64,000 nt of DNA. Source: Myxococcales bacterium FL481. GTDB lineage: Bacteria > Myxococcota_A > Polyangia > Nannocystales > Nannocystaceae. The DNA lies in the NCBI GenBank assembly GCA_006508105.1, contig QKPP01000059.1, positions 1 through 64,000 on the forward strand, written 5' to 3'. Positions 7,781 through 42,809 of the stretch are shown one piece after another; the stretch's first letter is position 1; each line of letters starts with the position of its first letter. The translations under genes and the position numbers were made by a program. The notes beneath the pieces are model-generated. The model saw nothing but the letters and a program-made list of their open reading frames with translations. It made no database searches and was not told the origin of the DNA.

Positions 7781-10621
7781 CTACACCGTGACCCGCCGCC
7801 GTCCCCACGTGATCCGTCGCAGCGCCAAGTCGAGGACAAACAACGGCAGCGTCAGCCCCCACAACACCATCGGCCATAGCGGAGTGTCTTTCGTCCGCCC
7901 GCTCGCCTGCCCGGGCCGCTTGACCAGCGCCTCCACATCGGCGAGCGGTTCGAGGGCCAAAGGCATCGCTCGGGCCAGTTCGATGGGTCCTGGCAACAGC
8001 TCCGCGGGGTACGGAATCGAGAGTTGAGTCACCGCCTGCGCGGCGAGCCGAGCTGGCTCGACGCTGCGGTCGAAGAGTCGGGCGCGAAACAGTCGCTGAC
8101 CGGCCTCGATGCCGTGCAGGCGCGCAACGTAGCGACCGGGGGCCGTGAGACGCAACGGCACCGCGCGACGGTGCATCGCGTCGTCTGCCTCGCGCGAGAG
8201 GTCCACGATCTCCAGCTCGCCGTGCAGTCCGTTGGCGAATCCGCTGACCGCGTCGACGTCGACCACCGCTTCGAACGCGCCGGGCCGCTCGCCGGGCTGA
8301 ATCTCGATGCTCGCTCCGCCGACCGAGGCTTTCCCTTGACGCATTGTGTCGCGAGCCAACTGGCTCCACAGTTTGGGAAACCCCGACCACAGCAGCCATC
8401 GACTCGCCCAACGCGGCTTCGCGTCGCTGGCGAAGGCCAGGGTCCGACCCAGTCCACTACGTCCGCGAACCAGCAGGTCGTCGCCGTTTTGCGTGCGTAA
8501 CAACGTCTCGGTTCGCGGTTTGGCATCGATGGGGATCAGGCCGGCAAGCCCCGGAGCCCGACCGAAGTCGATGCCGCGCAGGGCCTGGACCGATTTGTGG
8601 ACCCGGGCGAAGTGCTGCTGTTCGACCACGGCGTTGCGCGAGACCTCACGAGTCTCGCGCGAGAAGATGCGAGGCACGTCGGTCCCGTCTTGGGAAAAGT
8701 AGTAGCGGCCGCGGCCTTGGCTGGCGATGCGAGACAGCAGTTCTTTGCCCGCGCCTTCACCGACACCGACGGTCGAAACGGTGATATCCGACGAGCGCAT
8801 ATCGTGGAGCAAACTGGCGATGCCCCGCTCCGGGGACTGACCGTCGCTGAGCAAAATGACGTGCTTGACGAGGGCCCGCGACCCCGAAAGCTGGAGGTAG
8901 GCCTCGCGCAAGGCGGGGAGAACATTGGTGCCGCCACCCGCGGTGAGCCGCGCGATGTCGGACGAGATCCGGATCCGGTTGGCCGCCCGTTGCAGCCGTA
9001 CGAGCACGTGAGCGCGAGAGTCAAATGCGATTACCCCGATCTCGTCCGCCGGGTCCAGCGTCCGGGCGGTGAGCCGAGCGGCTTCCTTGACGAGATCGAG
9101 TTTGTCTTGGCTCGACATCGACCCGCTCTTGTCGATCACCAGCATCAGCGCCAGCGTCGGTTCCTCTCGCTGTCGTTCGCCCTCGAAGCGCACGGGCAAG
9201 ATGCTCTCGATCGGCGTGTTCTTCCATCCGCCCACGCCGAAGGCGTGTTCCCCCCCGACCATGGCGAAGCCGCCGCCTTGCTCGCGCACGTACTCGACAA
9301 TGGCCCGCTGTTGGTCCGTCGACACGGCTCGAGCCGGGATGTCGGAGAACACCACCAGGTCGTATCCCGCGAGCGCCGCGGTCTCGGTGGGCAAGCTCGC
9401 GGCGGAGCGATCATCGACATCGAGATGGTCGGCTCGCAACGCTCGGACCAACGCTTGGGACCCGTCGCTGCCGACGTGGAGGACGCGCGGGCGACCACGG
9501 ATCTCGCCCGCCGTGGCTCCATGATCGTTGTCGGGCCGGTCGTTGGCGACGCCACGAATCGAGCTGGGGTCGAGCTCGGCCCGAAACAACACCGGTCCGG
9601 CCGCGAGCAGGCGAGCGGGTACCCGCACTTGGTTTTCGCCCGCGCGCAGCTGCACATCGATCGCGGGCATCAGTTCGTTGGGCTGCCCGTTTTGCGTGAC
9701 CCGCAGGCTCGCGCTGGCGGTCGCACTCGACTCGATGTCCACGATGAGATCGATCGTTTGCCCGATTCGCAGCGTGTTGGGCAGGTGCATGCCGGTGATG
9801 GCCACGTCCTCTTTCGCGGCCGGCTCGAGAGATTCAAACCGGATGGTGACGTCGCGTTGCTCGAGCTCGGCCAACGAGGCGGCGAGGGCTTGCCGTTCTC
9901 GACGGTCGCCAGCTCCATCGGTGCACAGCACGAAGACCGGTTCCGTGTCGGGGTCGACCACGGCGTGGGCGAGCGCCAATGCTTCGGCGTGATGGCTCGC
10001 CAGCGGCGTCGCCGACGGGTGGATGTGCAGGTCTTGCGGGGGGTCCGCGTGGAGGTCATAGGCGCGTGCCGACTCGGCGTAGGTGACCAGCCGGATCCGC
10101 GTGCGGTCTTGGGGATCGACGCCGTCTTCGATCTCTTCTTCGCTCAACCGCTGGGCCTGGCGAACCAGCTGCCGCACCCGGGCGAGCGCTTCGGGTGACA
10201 CCGAGGCCGACGTATCGACCACAAACACCACTGTTTTGCCCCGCATCGGCGTGAGCAGACTCGGCCACGCCACGGCCAAGCCCAGCGATGCGAGGACCAA
10301 GGCGCGCAGCACCGTGTTGGTGGCGATTTGCCGGTTCCGCTGGTCGACCAGGCTGCGGGTGGCCATCCACACGAGAAACGGGACGGTGCCGGCGGGGATG
10401 AGCCACGCCAGATGCGGCTGGGCGAAGCGAACCTGGGCGGTGGAACTCGCGTTCATGAACGCGGTGAGGAGGGCGGGCGCGGGGACGTGCCAAGGTGGGC
10501 TGGGGCCGAGCCACTGGTAGGCGGCCCCCGCAAGGCCGACACTGGCGACGAGGACGATCAGGCCCGAAAGCCAAGCGGGCATGCGGGCGGTGGCTCGCGC
10601 GGCCATCGACGGCTGACTCAT
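7781..10621 (-). CDS. Membrane protein with two VWA-type domains flanking a GATase1-like domain
   Basis: N-terminal TM helices, VVFVVDTSASVS (first MIDAS), VLHVGSDGSQALVRALRADHLDVDDR...YDLVVFSD...GGGFAMVGGEHAFG (GATase-like), LALMLVIDKSGSMSSQDKLDLVKEAA (second MIDAS), C-terminal TM helix. Confidence 0.88.
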   Translation of the reverse strand: MSQPSMAARATARMPAWLSGLIVLVASVGLAGAAYQWLGPSPPWHVPAPALLTAFMNASSTAQVRFAQPHLAWLIPAGTVPFLVWMATRSLVDQRNRQIATNTVLRALVLASLGLAVAWPSLLTPMRGKTVVFVVDTSASVSPEALARVRQLVRQAQRLSEEEIEDGVDPQDRTRIRLVTYAESARAYDLHADPPQDLHIHPSATPLASHHAEALALAHAVVDPDTEPVFVLCTDGAGDRRERQALAASLAELEQRDVTIRFESLEPAAKEDVAITGMHLPNTLRIGQTIDLIVDIESSATASASLRVTQNGQPNELMPAIDVQLRAGENQVRVPARLLAAGPVLFRAELDPSSIRGVANDRPDNDHGATAGEIRGRPRVLHVGSDGSQALVRALRADHLDVDDRSAASLPTETAALAGYDLVVFSDIPARAVSTDQQRAIVEYVREQGGGFAMVGGEHAFGVGGWKNTPIESILPVRFEGERQREEPTLALMLVIDKSGSMSSQDKLDLVKEAARLTARTLDPADEIGVIAFDSRAHVLVRLQRAANRIRISSDIARLTAGGGTNVLPALREAYLQLSGSRALVKHVILLSDGQSPERGIASLLHDMRSSDITVSTVGVGEGAGKELLSRIASQGRGRYYFSQDGTDVPRIFSRETREVSRNAVVEQQHFARVHKSVQALRGIDFGRAPGLAGLIPIDAKPRTETLLRTQNGDDLLVRGRSGLGRTLAFASDAKPRWASRWLLWSGFPKLWSQLARDTMRQGKASVGGASIEIQPGERPGAFEAVVDVDAVSGFANGLHGELEIVDLSREADDAMHRRAVPLRLTAPGRYVARLHGIEAGQRLFRARLFDRSVEPARLAAQAVTQLSIPYPAELLPGPIELARAMPLALEPLADVEALVKRPGQASGRTKDTPLWPMVLWGLTLPLFVLDLALRRITWGRRRVTV

Positions 10622-39447: not shown

Positions 39448-40008
39448 ATGTCGATGCTTGCAGTTCGTCTCACGTCACTACTGGTTGCCTTGTCGGCCGT
39501 GGCTTGCGAGGAGCCCGTCGACCGTTCTCTCGTTCCCCGGGCTGTGGTCGACGTCGACCCGGTCGATGCACCGACGCGTTCCGTCGCTCGCCCCGGCCAT
39601 GTCTCAGCGGAAGCGACGATACCGCCAAACGAACCCGCCGATCTCGCACCGGACTCGGTCGGGACCGCGACGGTGGTCACGTGGCGTGAAGGCTGGGACT
39701 CGGCCGCGCAGTACGGACCGACAGTGACGCTCATGCGCTGCGAACTCGCAACGTTGCAGTGCTTGATCTCAGACGATCGGCTTGCGGTCGATCCGACGTC
39801 TAGCGCAAGCACGGCGACGGCCTGCGCGGAGGCTCTGGGACCTCGGTGCGCGCAGGGTCAAACGGCGCGGTTCGTCGGCGGTCGCTTCGACGACTGCCAG
39901 CTGGGTTTGCCGGCGTGCCTCGAGTCCTACGGCGATCCGGTGGCTTGTTCCGCCGTGTTCGCCTACTGTTTCGGCGGTGGTCAGGGTCGGTTCATCGAGC
40001 CGCGCTGA
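39448..40008 (+). CDS. Predicted lipoprotein/secreted protein with C-X6/7-C cysteine-pair domain
   Basis: MSMLAVRLTSLLVALSAVACEEP lipobox; CELATLQC, CAEALGPRC, CQLGLPAC, CSAVFAYC. Confidence 0.75.
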   Translation: MSMLAVRLTSLLVALSAVACEEPVDRSLVPRAVVDVDPVDAPTRSVARPGHVSAEATIPPNEPADLAPDSVGTATVVTWREGWDSAAQYGPTVTLMRCELATLQCLISDDRLAVDPTSSASTATACAEALGPRCAQGQTARFVGGRFDDCQLGLPACLESYGDPVACSAVFAYCFGGGQGRFIEPR

Positions 40009-40032
40009 ACCGACGCGGGGTGGCGAACGGTT

Positions 40033-40680
40033 TTGGCAGGGCAGCTCACTTTCGGCCGATTCGGGCGTCCGAGTTCCGCATTCGGTCCATTCTCCGCGGC
40101 AGCACCTGCGTTGACGGCAACGGGAACCGATTCGAGTCCTCGCGTCGCGGAGGAAGCCCGGCCGTCGTTCGAGGCGGTGTACCACCGGCATGTCGGATTT
40201 GTGTGGAGAACGCTACGACGACTCGGAATCCCGGCCGCCGAGCTCGAAGATGCCGTCCAGGACGTGTTTCTCATCCTTCATCGACGACTTGATGAATTCG
40301 ATCCCACCAAAGCCTCCATGCCGACTTGGCTCTATGGCATGGCTCGAGGCATTGCCGCGAATCGCCGGCGCAAGGCCGCTCGGGGGCGACGGCCAGACGG
40401 CGTGTCGCTCGTCCCGTCTTCGCCGCTGGGGCCAGAGCAACACGCGGAACGGGCGGAGGCCGAGCGGGTGGTGGGTGCGTTCCTCGACACGTTGTCGCCC
40501 GAGCGTCGGGCGGTGTTTGAGCTGTGCGAGGTCGAGGGGCTTCGTGGATCGGAGATCGCGAAGATCCTCGAGCTCAACGTCAATACCGTGCACACCCGCA
40601 TTCGCGCCGTGCGGGCCCTGTTCAAGACCTACCTGGCCCAGATGGCGACCGGGGCCGAGTCAGGCGTGAACCGTGGTTGA
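40033..40680 (+). CDS. ECF-type RNA polymerase sigma factor
   Basis: FEAVYHRHVGFVWRTLRRLGIPAAELEDAVQDVFLILHRRLDEFDPTKASMPTWLYGMARGIAANRRRKAAR (region 2), LDTLSPERRAVFELCEVEGLRGSEIAKILELNVNTVHTRIRAVRALFKTYL (region 4). Confidence 0.93.
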   Translation: MAGQLTFGRFGRPSSAFGPFSAAAPALTATGTDSSPRVAEEARPSFEAVYHRHVGFVWRTLRRLGIPAAELEDAVQDVFLILHRRLDEFDPTKASMPTWLYGMARGIAANRRRKAARGRRPDGVSLVPSSPLGPEQHAERAEAERVVGAFLDTLSPERRAVFELCEVEGLRGSEIAKILELNVNTVHTRIRAVRALFKTYLAQMATGAESGVNRG

Positions 40681-41797
40681 CACGAACCCGCACCCACGTG
40701 ATGGGGCCGCTTGGGTGGCGGACTATCGACGCTCGCTCGGTCCTTCGGCGGCCCAACAAGAGCGCGTGCTGGCGGCGTTGCGGGAGCGGGCGGCCCTCGA
40801 GCCCCCGCGCGCCGAGGCGAGTACGCGGCAGCGGAACGGGCGGGGTTGGTTCGCCGCAGCGGCGGGGGTTGTCGCGACCGCGGCCGCCGTGCTCGTGGTT
40901 TGGGGACAACAGCTACCGGCGCCGCCGGACAACGCGGTGTCCACCGGGGGCGACGCACCGACCACGGCCGTGGCCCGACAGCAACCCTTGCCCGTGACGA
41001 CGCTTCGGGGCGCCAGCGCCGGCTCCCGCTGGCCCGTGCCCGAGTCGGCGGCGGCGACCCGGCCGGTGCCGAGTCCCCAAGACCCCGCGTTCGAGGCGGC
41101 CGCGTCCGGGCCCCGCGAGCAGGGGACGGCGCGCCGGGACGCAAGCGAGGCGTCGGCGTCGCGGCGACCCGTGTCCGCTCCATCCACCGGTCCTGCGTCG
41201 GGCGTGCTCGCTGAGAGCGAGTCGAGCTTGCTCAGCGATGCGGCTGCCGGCGCCTTGTCGCCGAACGTCGCCCGAGGCGGTGCGGTCTTCGGAACCGCCC
41301 AGGATCGATCGCGGGGAACCGCCGTCGTGGCGGGTCAACCCGCTTCGCAGGTGCTCCGGCCGGTGACGGAGGAGGGCGCGGCCGGTCCCGAGCCGGAGCG
41401 CGCGTCGGCGGGAAGGCCCGGGCTGCGCTGCCGCGAGCGCTACAAGGCTTGCTCGGATAACGTGCGGCTCGAAGCACTGCACACCAAGTGTCGTGACGAC
41501 TACGCGACTTGTGTGGCCGAGCGGGACCGCATCTCGTTTGAGGATGCGCTGGAGGTGCTCGAGATCGGTTGTGAGCTCGATACGCTGACCTGCTTGGTGC
41601 GTGGCGAGTCGCCCGCGCAGGTGTGTGGTCAGCTCGCGGTGCCCGTGTGTACTGCTCGCGCGAGCGCTCGGGACGAAGCGCGCGAGCGCAGTTGTGTTCG
41701 GGCGTTGGCGACATGCGTCGCTGGCGAGGCCGAGCTCGCAGCGTGTGCCAGCGACTTCGCACAGTGTTTCGCGCCCGCCCCCGCCGTCGTGCCGTAG
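40673..41797 (+). CDS. Single-TM protein, putative anti-sigma/sensor partner, with C-terminal C-X6/7-C cysteine-pair domain
   Basis: GTG start overlaps sigma stop by 8 bp; cytoplasmic N-terminus, TM WFAAAAGVVATAAAVLVVWG, C-terminus CRERYKAC, CRDDYATC, CELDTLTC, CGQLAVPVC, CVRALATC, CASDFAQC. Confidence 0.8.
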   Translation: MVDTNPHPRDGAAWVADYRRSLGPSAAQQERVLAALRERAALEPPRAEASTRQRNGRGWFAAAAGVVATAAAVLVVWGQQLPAPPDNAVSTGGDAPTTAVARQQPLPVTTLRGASAGSRWPVPESAAATRPVPSPQDPAFEAAASGPREQGTARRDASEASASRRPVSAPSTGPASGVLAESESSLLSDAAAGALSPNVARGGAVFGTAQDRSRGTAVVAGQPASQVLRPVTEEGAAGPEPERASAGRPGLRCRERYKACSDNVRLEALHTKCRDDYATCVAERDRISFEDALEVLEIGCELDTLTCLVRGESPAQVCGQLAVPVCTARASARDEARERSCVRALATCVAGEAELAACASDFAQCFAPAPAVVP

Positions 41798-41806
41798 GTC
41801 CCCGAC

Positions 41807-42448
41807 TCACTCGAACAGGCGCGTGTCGAGGCAATCGTATCCGGTCACCGGGACGCGCCGAGCGGCACAGAGCGGGTAGGCGTGGGCGAACAGCGACCAG
41901 ACCATCACGTCTTGAATGTCGCCGTTCGCGTTGGTGAAACGCCGCGCCAGGGTCGCTTCGTGGGTGAACCCCAGCTTTTGCGCCAGTCGAACACTGGCGG
42001 CGTTGATCGGCGAACAGTTCAGTTCGACCCGATCGACCCCATCGAGCTCGAATGCCACGCGAACCATGGCTGCGCTGGCCTCGAACCCGTAGCCCCGTCT
42101 CGTGTGAGCGCTGTCGATCCAGTAGCCGATCTCGCGGCGCCCGTCGCCCAACCGGTCGAGCAGCATGACCTCCCCCACGAGATCGCCCCCGGCCGCCCCG
42201 AACACGGCATAGCGGTAGTGTTCGTCCCGATCAAAGCCGGACCGCAGTTCACGAAGCCATTGGGCGGTCGCTGCAAGAGACCGTGGCTCATGCTTCATGA
42301 ACGGAATGAAGGGGCGCATGTCCGCATCTGAGCGATCGAGGCTCGCACGGAGCCGGGGGGCGTCGCGCGGCGCCCAGGGCCGCAGCCGCAGGCGGGCGGT
42401 CTCGAGTCGATACGCTGGACCGGCCGTGTGCTCGGGGCTTCGCGCCAT
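41807..42448 (-). CDS. GNAT-family N-acetyltransferase (RimJ/RimL-like)
   Basis: YRLETARLRLRPWAPRDAPRL, GEVMLLDRLGDGRREIGYWIDSAHTRRGYGFEASAAMVRVAFE, NCSPINAASVRLAQKLGFTHEATL. Confidence 0.92.
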   Translation of the reverse strand: MARSPEHTAGPAYRLETARLRLRPWAPRDAPRLRASLDRSDADMRPFIPFMKHEPRSLAATAQWLRELRSGFDRDEHYRYAVFGAAGGDLVGEVMLLDRLGDGRREIGYWIDSAHTRRGYGFEASAAMVRVAFELDGVDRVELNCSPINAASVRLAQKLGFTHEATLARRFTNANGDIQDVMVWSLFAHAYPLCAARRVPVTGYDCLDTRLFE

Positions 42449-42569
42449 CCGCCGATGGTAGTCCGCTCGGATCGACACGACAATGCACGCCTGGGGGCCT
42501 CGACGTCGCGTGGGGCCCGTTGCACCGTCGGTTCTATCCGGGCGACCGGATGCCTCGAGGGGAGGGCGG

Positions 42570-42644
42570 GGCGAGTAATGGGATTCGAACCCACGACTTC
42601 CTGGACCACAACCAGGCGCTCTAACCAACTGAGCTATACTCGCC
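42570..42644 (-). tRNA. tRNA-His(GTG)
   Basis: Minus strand GGCGAGTATAGCTCAGTTGGTTAGAGCGCCTGGTTGTGGTCCAGGAAGTCGTGGGTTCGAATCCCATTACTCGCCC; full cloverleaf, anticodon GTG, encoded G-1:C73 pair, CCA not encoded. Confidence 0.97.
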
Positions 42645-42809
42645 GTCGGAGCGCGAACTCCTAGCACGCCTTGTTTTGGCGGCCAAGTGCAAGCCTTGAG
42701 CGCTGCGCGGGCTGCGTTGAGCCGGCGGCCGTCGATTGCGCCGCGGGCGGCGTGGTACGGTCGAGCTGCTGCTACGCGCGCCCTGGGATGGGCGTCCAGG
42801 AGTCACGTG

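Follow-up and report, generated by a model that had tools for sequence, protein, structure and literature searches.

The locus lies on the forward strand of a window (the whole stretch of 64,000 nucleotides that was analysed) that is part of a 6.4 Mb draft genome (G000), and it contains three genes in a row, coding for a lipoprotein (here referred to as LP; 39448–40008), an ECF sigma factor (40111–40680) and a proposed anti-sigma factor (AS; 40673–41797). LP has 186 aa. Its signal peptide, MSMLAVRLTSLLVALSAVAC, and its lipobox, SAVAC with Cys20, were read by eye; the lipobox has the general pattern, with an atypical Ala at position -3. A low-complexity linker of about 75 aa follows, and then the Cys domain (aa 98–174, 39739–39969) with the motifs CELATLQC, CAEALGPRC, CQLGLPAC and CSAVFAYC. 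LP contains nine Cys in all, namely C20 and the pairs 98/105, 126/134, 150/157 and 167/174, spaced as CX6C, CX7C, CX6C and CX6C.

The sigma factor matches PF04542 (2e-15) and PF08281 (6e-12) in Pfam and TIGR02937 (1.8e-23) in NCBIfam. By these matches it is an ECF protein (sigma-70 group 4) of about 200 aa with regions 2 and 4 only (Sigma70 r2 and r4_2), and its closest relatives are found in Nannocystis (51%) and in a genome of a second genus, G018 (45%). TTG at 40111 is a more likely start than the alternative TTG at 40033, because the homologs have about 22 residues ahead of the VY.RH motif, and with this start the gap from the LP stop is 102 bp. The sequence GGAAC-N15-CGTC at 40123 resembles an ECF promoter, but it was dismissed since one strand of the window holds 8 such sites.

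AS is a single-TM protein of 374 aa whose GTG start at 40673 places it in an 8-bp overlap with the sigma gene (stop TGA, 40678–40680). Its cytosolic N-terminal domain (aa 1–45, 40673–40807; AAWVADYRRSLGPSAAQQERVLAALRER) has two helices as judged from its sequence, and is followed by the transmembrane helix (aa 58–76, 40844–40900, hydropathy 2.08) and a periplasmic linker (aa 78–250, 40904–41422) made up to 62% of P/A/G/S/T. Three Cys hairpins come next: hairpin 1 (aa 253–280, 41429–41512, CX6C-X12-CX6C), hairpin 2 (aa 300–326, 41570–41650, CX6C-X10-CX7C), which aligns to the first LP pairs, and hairpin 3 (aa 341–365, 41693–41767, CX6C-X9-CX6C), which aligns to the last ones. All 12 Cys of AS are located in this C-terminal ectodomain, at 253/260, 273/280, 300/307, 318/326, 341/348 and 358/365, and the five CX6C spacings compare with 1.1 expected from random placement (P=0.001). 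The coordinates, Cys motifs, spacings and overlap given in a sequence-only reading of this DNA are all present, and the 6,7,6,6 pattern that it saw in both the LP pairs and the last four AS pairs is borne out by the Cys positions. Downstream, a tRNA-His(gtg) gene (42568–42643, minus strand) sits inside the long 5' end of a GNAT ORF (41807–42667), so the true GNAT start is downstream of the tRNA.

That LP and AS have an exported Cys domain in common, as the earlier reading held, agrees with direct comparison. BLASTP aligns the two at 31 bits (E=1e-5), their local score of 85 exceeds the maximum of 68 in 5000 full shuffles, and the similarity is still significant (P=0.0006) when the Cys positions are kept and the other residues are shuffled. 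On this evidence the two Cys domains are homologous and alike beyond composition and Cys pattern. The earlier reading missed the unit itself: two CX6C helices form a helical hairpin, which is recurrent in lipoproteins across the Nannocystaceae. Parsed as CX6C-X9-12-CX6/7C, it occurs three times in AS, and LP has one canonical and one split copy, while lipoproteins of other genomes mostly contain 5–11 Cys units each. Scans of AS and LP against Pfam and NCBIfam gave nothing, the hairpin unit had no match in Pfam, NCBIfam or PDB, and its assignment to a known fold was rejected as PDB had no sequence match. AF2, run on the two window domains only, predicted with low confidence (pLDDT 57.5) a domain that is helical throughout and in which nearly every CX6C pair lies on a single helix. 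With Cys residues one heptad apart on both helices, there would be room for two disulfides in each hairpin, and such disulfides are likely to form. In the literature we found no description of the hairpin domain or of the arrangement; subscription journals were mostly outside this coverage, and an earlier account is possible.

The earlier reading had also put AS forward as an anti-sigma candidate, and its N-terminus and gene context uphold this. A profile of 11 N-termini from TPR-type partner proteins, with the window and G018 left out, found AS as the sole match among 641 window ORFs (E=6.1e-8) and the G018 protein as the sole match in its own locus (5e-10). The motif LLxAxR....P......R of the myxobacterial partners is present in AS, and R19 (Arg) is invariant across 20 aligned N-termini. 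Moreover, in most of 50-odd relatives the gene order is the same and the partner gene overlaps the sigma stop, mostly by 4–23 bp; AS fits this single-TM sigma-partner family in both its overlap and its one TM helix. Thus AS is very probably an anti-sigma factor, and its binding to the sigma factor is highly likely.

As for its class, the 57-aa cytosolic part of AS has no Pfam match to class I or zinc anti-sigma domains (ASDI/ZAS), no Cys and no HX3CX2C. Class I domains average 101 aa, and domains shorter than 50 aa were set aside as possible class II (PMC7406223), so a cytosolic part of about 57 residues falls short of a typical class I domain. In the class II plan, CnrY embraces its sigma factor with two helices (PMC4598750). 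The N-terminus of AS fits a class-II-like domain by its length and two-helix pattern, a comparison of how the two may work. Among PDB chains, neither CnrY nor any solved anti-sigma factor matched it in sequence, and it did not match a known anti-sigma domain in Pfam or NCBIfam.

The ectodomain of AS sets it apart from its relatives. We fetched 80 related ECF loci from genome contigs, and 53 of them gave a usable partner protein. A TPR profile matches 53/53 of these, also when they are held out, and matches neither AS nor the G018 protein; the idea that Cys ectodomains prevail among the partners of this sigma type is therefore ruled out. By this comparison AS is a variant of the myxobacterial single-TM sigma-partner family and not a typical member, its Cys ectodomain replacing the TPR ectodomain that is standard there, which the earlier reading had missed as well. 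Only two anti-sigma candidates with Cys ectodomains were found (AS and the G018 protein), and in the 821 kb surrounding the 80 TPR-type loci no protein has two or more hairpins. The TPR ectodomain is predicted at pLDDT 90.9. It resembles BamD in sequence (E=3e-8), and Foldseek relates it to the YbgF and BamD TPRs with probability 1.00 and TM-scores of 0.6–0.67 at an E of only 0.05; by way of this domain the standard partners may report on outer-membrane assembly. Two near-invariant Cys were observed in the TPR ectodomains of the 53 partner proteins (L143–L222). For this family the AS linker is long, TPR-type linkers having a median of 87 and a range of 55–173 aa.

In the sigma tree, the window and G018 sigmas fall into one clade with the Nannocystis sigmas of TPR-type partners (UFBoot 97), and the sister relationship of window and G018 reaches a UFBoot of 43 only. 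Since TPR-type Nannocystis sigmas are in the same clade, the ectodomain was exchanged within it, so that the Cys domain replaced the TPR domain once or twice in the window/G018/Nannocystis clade. G018 has the genes for a sigma factor, a Cys-domain AS (448 aa) and a lipoprotein, in this order; the latter has five repeat blocks and an LGATGC lipobox, and its Cys domain matches that of the G018 AS (E=2.6e-7). The pairing of a Cys-domain AS with a lipoprotein is thus found again in a second genus. Between these two G018 genes there is a terminator-like hairpin with a T run (L049, about 8790–8830), so they need not be co-transcribed.

We further followed the hairpin repeat family, defined here by a CX6C-X8-13-CX6C unit that a profile from other genomes recognizes. 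Among the 641 window ORFs this profile reported LP only (E=0.0017). AS stayed below the threshold of E<1, with 7.4 bits and P=0.04 against Cys-fixed shuffles; AS therefore enters the family mainly via LP, which it matches at E=1e-5. A hairpin profile run over the window's own genome matches LP and AS and nothing else. Hairpin matches occur in 26 of 290 genomes of the class, 19 of these being among the 29 members of the window's own taxonomic family. Searches of the relatives with whole AS or whole LP mostly returned matches to the low-complexity linker, with L009/L050 as the useful one.

A profile search for co-occurrence with ECF genes had been proposed in the earlier reading, and it gave a positive result: 13 of 20 scorable hairpin lipoprotein loci of this taxonomic family are in or beside ECF operons, compared with about 0.5–1 expected. 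Linkage here means an ECF gene on the same strand within about 5 kb, and the expectation follows from the density of sigma genes measured in these genomes (39 to 138 in each). After orthologs were collapsed, 3 of 9 independent groups were linked (p=0.008). Nannocystis and the genera g3 and g5 share a conserved Nannocystaceae operon with a different ECF gene, then (where read) a single-TM/TPR protein and then a CX6C-hairpin lipoprotein (L085:3550–7976, L084:2504–7644, L094, L098, L139 and L092), and in several cases also a second Cys-rich lipoprotein. The one in G002 (L084:4319–5125) consists almost entirely of DDPCC(L/V/Q)NP repeats. G015 and G044 each combine an ECF gene with a gene for a FecR-like or TPR protein and one for a hairpin lipoprotein, so the linkage is present in another family (G044) as well. 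In another family, an ECF gene and a FecR-like anti-sigma gene are followed by a lipoprotein with C-X7-C-X9-C-X7-C repeats (L136:685–5586). A TonB-like protein has a single CX6C hairpin directly after its TM helix (L142:4763–5674).

We favor, at a probability of about 60%, the reading that the locus forms a self-contained unit for transmembrane signalling, with a class-II-like anti-sigma factor, a disulfide-stapled hairpin ectodomain and LP as its partner or co-sensor. The short two-helix N-terminus of AS would keep the ECF sigma factor inactive in the cytosol. AS would span the inner membrane once, and its long flexible linker would carry the Cys domain, as three disulfide-stapled helical hairpins in place of the TPR ectodomain, through the periplasm; the length of this linker could let the domain approach the outer membrane. 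LP would display its homologous version of the hairpin domain from a lipid anchor, which most likely sits in the outer membrane. The fate of AS might then depend on the binding of LP, or of a ligand that competes with LP for its binding surface: either AS stays stable, or its cleavage or rearrangement sets the sigma factor free. Release by proteolysis and release by rearrangement fit the sequence equally. The functional partnership of LP and AS, taken by itself, is evenly balanced. A bolder version is doubtful: anti-sigma factor and lipoprotein would be a homotypic pair with the same disulfide-hairpin fold, binding each other across the periplasm, the sigma factor would directly read a lipoprotein that is lost, misfolded or thiol-exchanged as envelope stress, and the hairpin would be a mobile cassette recruited repeatedly to ECF systems of Nannocystaceae.

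The most serious competitor, possible at less than even odds, retains AS as the anti-sigma factor and regards the hairpins as a structural disulfide scaffold for an unrelated ligand, LP being an envelope protein regulated by the sigma factor and no co-sensor. Seven hairpin lipoproteins have no ECF gene nearby, the 5–11 repeats in most of them look structural, one hairpin is located in the TonB-like protein and the G018 lipoprotein sits behind the terminator-like hairpin, all of which would suit a scaffold. Against it, the domain is limited within this genome to exactly two adjacent proteins, and the same pairing of AS and lipoprotein is seen again in G018. It is unlikely that the Cys domain itself senses thiol redox state or metals, its reduction, oxidation or metal binding altering AS and freeing the sigma factor, and redox or metal is equally improbable as the signal in general. 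The 12 regularly spaced Cys, with none elsewhere in AS, point in this direction, and precedents exist in the periplasmic Cys of OsrA (PMC4598750) and the metal-sensing CorE sigmas of Myxococcus (PMC8999054). However, with the heptad spacing of CX6C on a helix, a metal site is a poorer fit than structural disulfides linking paired helices, no His/Cys metal cluster or CXXC is present, and the operon contains no redox or metal gene. That AS is merely a co-transcribed envelope protein anchored by its N-terminus is very unlikely. In its favor is the lack of a match to known anti-sigma domains in Pfam, NCBIfam or PDB; against it stand the N-terminal motif kept across partners with unrelated ectodomains, the place of the partner gene, which nearly always comes 3' of the sigma gene and overlaps it briefly, and a length and two-helix pattern that fit class II.

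Under the favored reading of a hairpin-bearing anti-sigma factor with LP as its partner, the locus has a wider meaning. Most genomes of the family have from 20 to over 130 sigma-70-family genes, and most of these respond to signals of unknown kind; here the locus names a candidate partner protein. The natural swap of an ectodomain on a conserved sigma/anti-sigma core means that the sigma-binding part is separable from the sensing part. The locus also reveals a Cys-hairpin envelope domain that is absent from the family libraries searched and whose linkage to ECF operons extends over several lineages.

Among known systems, OsrA (EcfF, Bradyrhizobium) and RsrA (Streptomyces) are likewise Cys-containing anti-sigma factors. 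RsrA, however, resides in the cytosol and has the zinc motif HX3CX2C, which AS lacks, and OsrA depends on a single periplasmic redox Cys (PMC4598750). In the mitochondrial CHCH or twin-CX9C hairpins, too, two Cys pairs staple a pair of helices together, a likeness in working only, as their spacing is CX9C instead of CX6C and no sequence match was seen in Pfam or PDB. In RseA/RseB and FecR-type ECF systems the ectodomain of a membrane anti-sigma factor is controlled by another envelope protein, as proposed here; RseB acting on RseA is a precedent for such control, although the window proteins contain no RseA, RseB or FecR domains in Pfam or NCBIfam. In CnrH/CnrY/CnrX of Cupriavidus metallidurans, the cytosolic domain is likewise short, with about two helices, there is a single TM helix, and a second envelope protein is encoded alongside, CnrX being the separate periplasmic sensor that partners CnrY. 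Sequence similarity to it is undetectable, and CnrX is an unrelated metal sensor with no domain in common with CnrY. The myxobacterial ECF systems with YbgF/CpoB/BamD-like TPR partners have the same gene order, short overlap, N-terminal motif, single TM helix and P/A/S/T-rich linker, but here the AS ectodomain consists of Cys hairpins and the domain is also found on a lipoprotein. The locus thus points to an undescribed sensor variant on a very common sigma/membrane anti-sigma switch.
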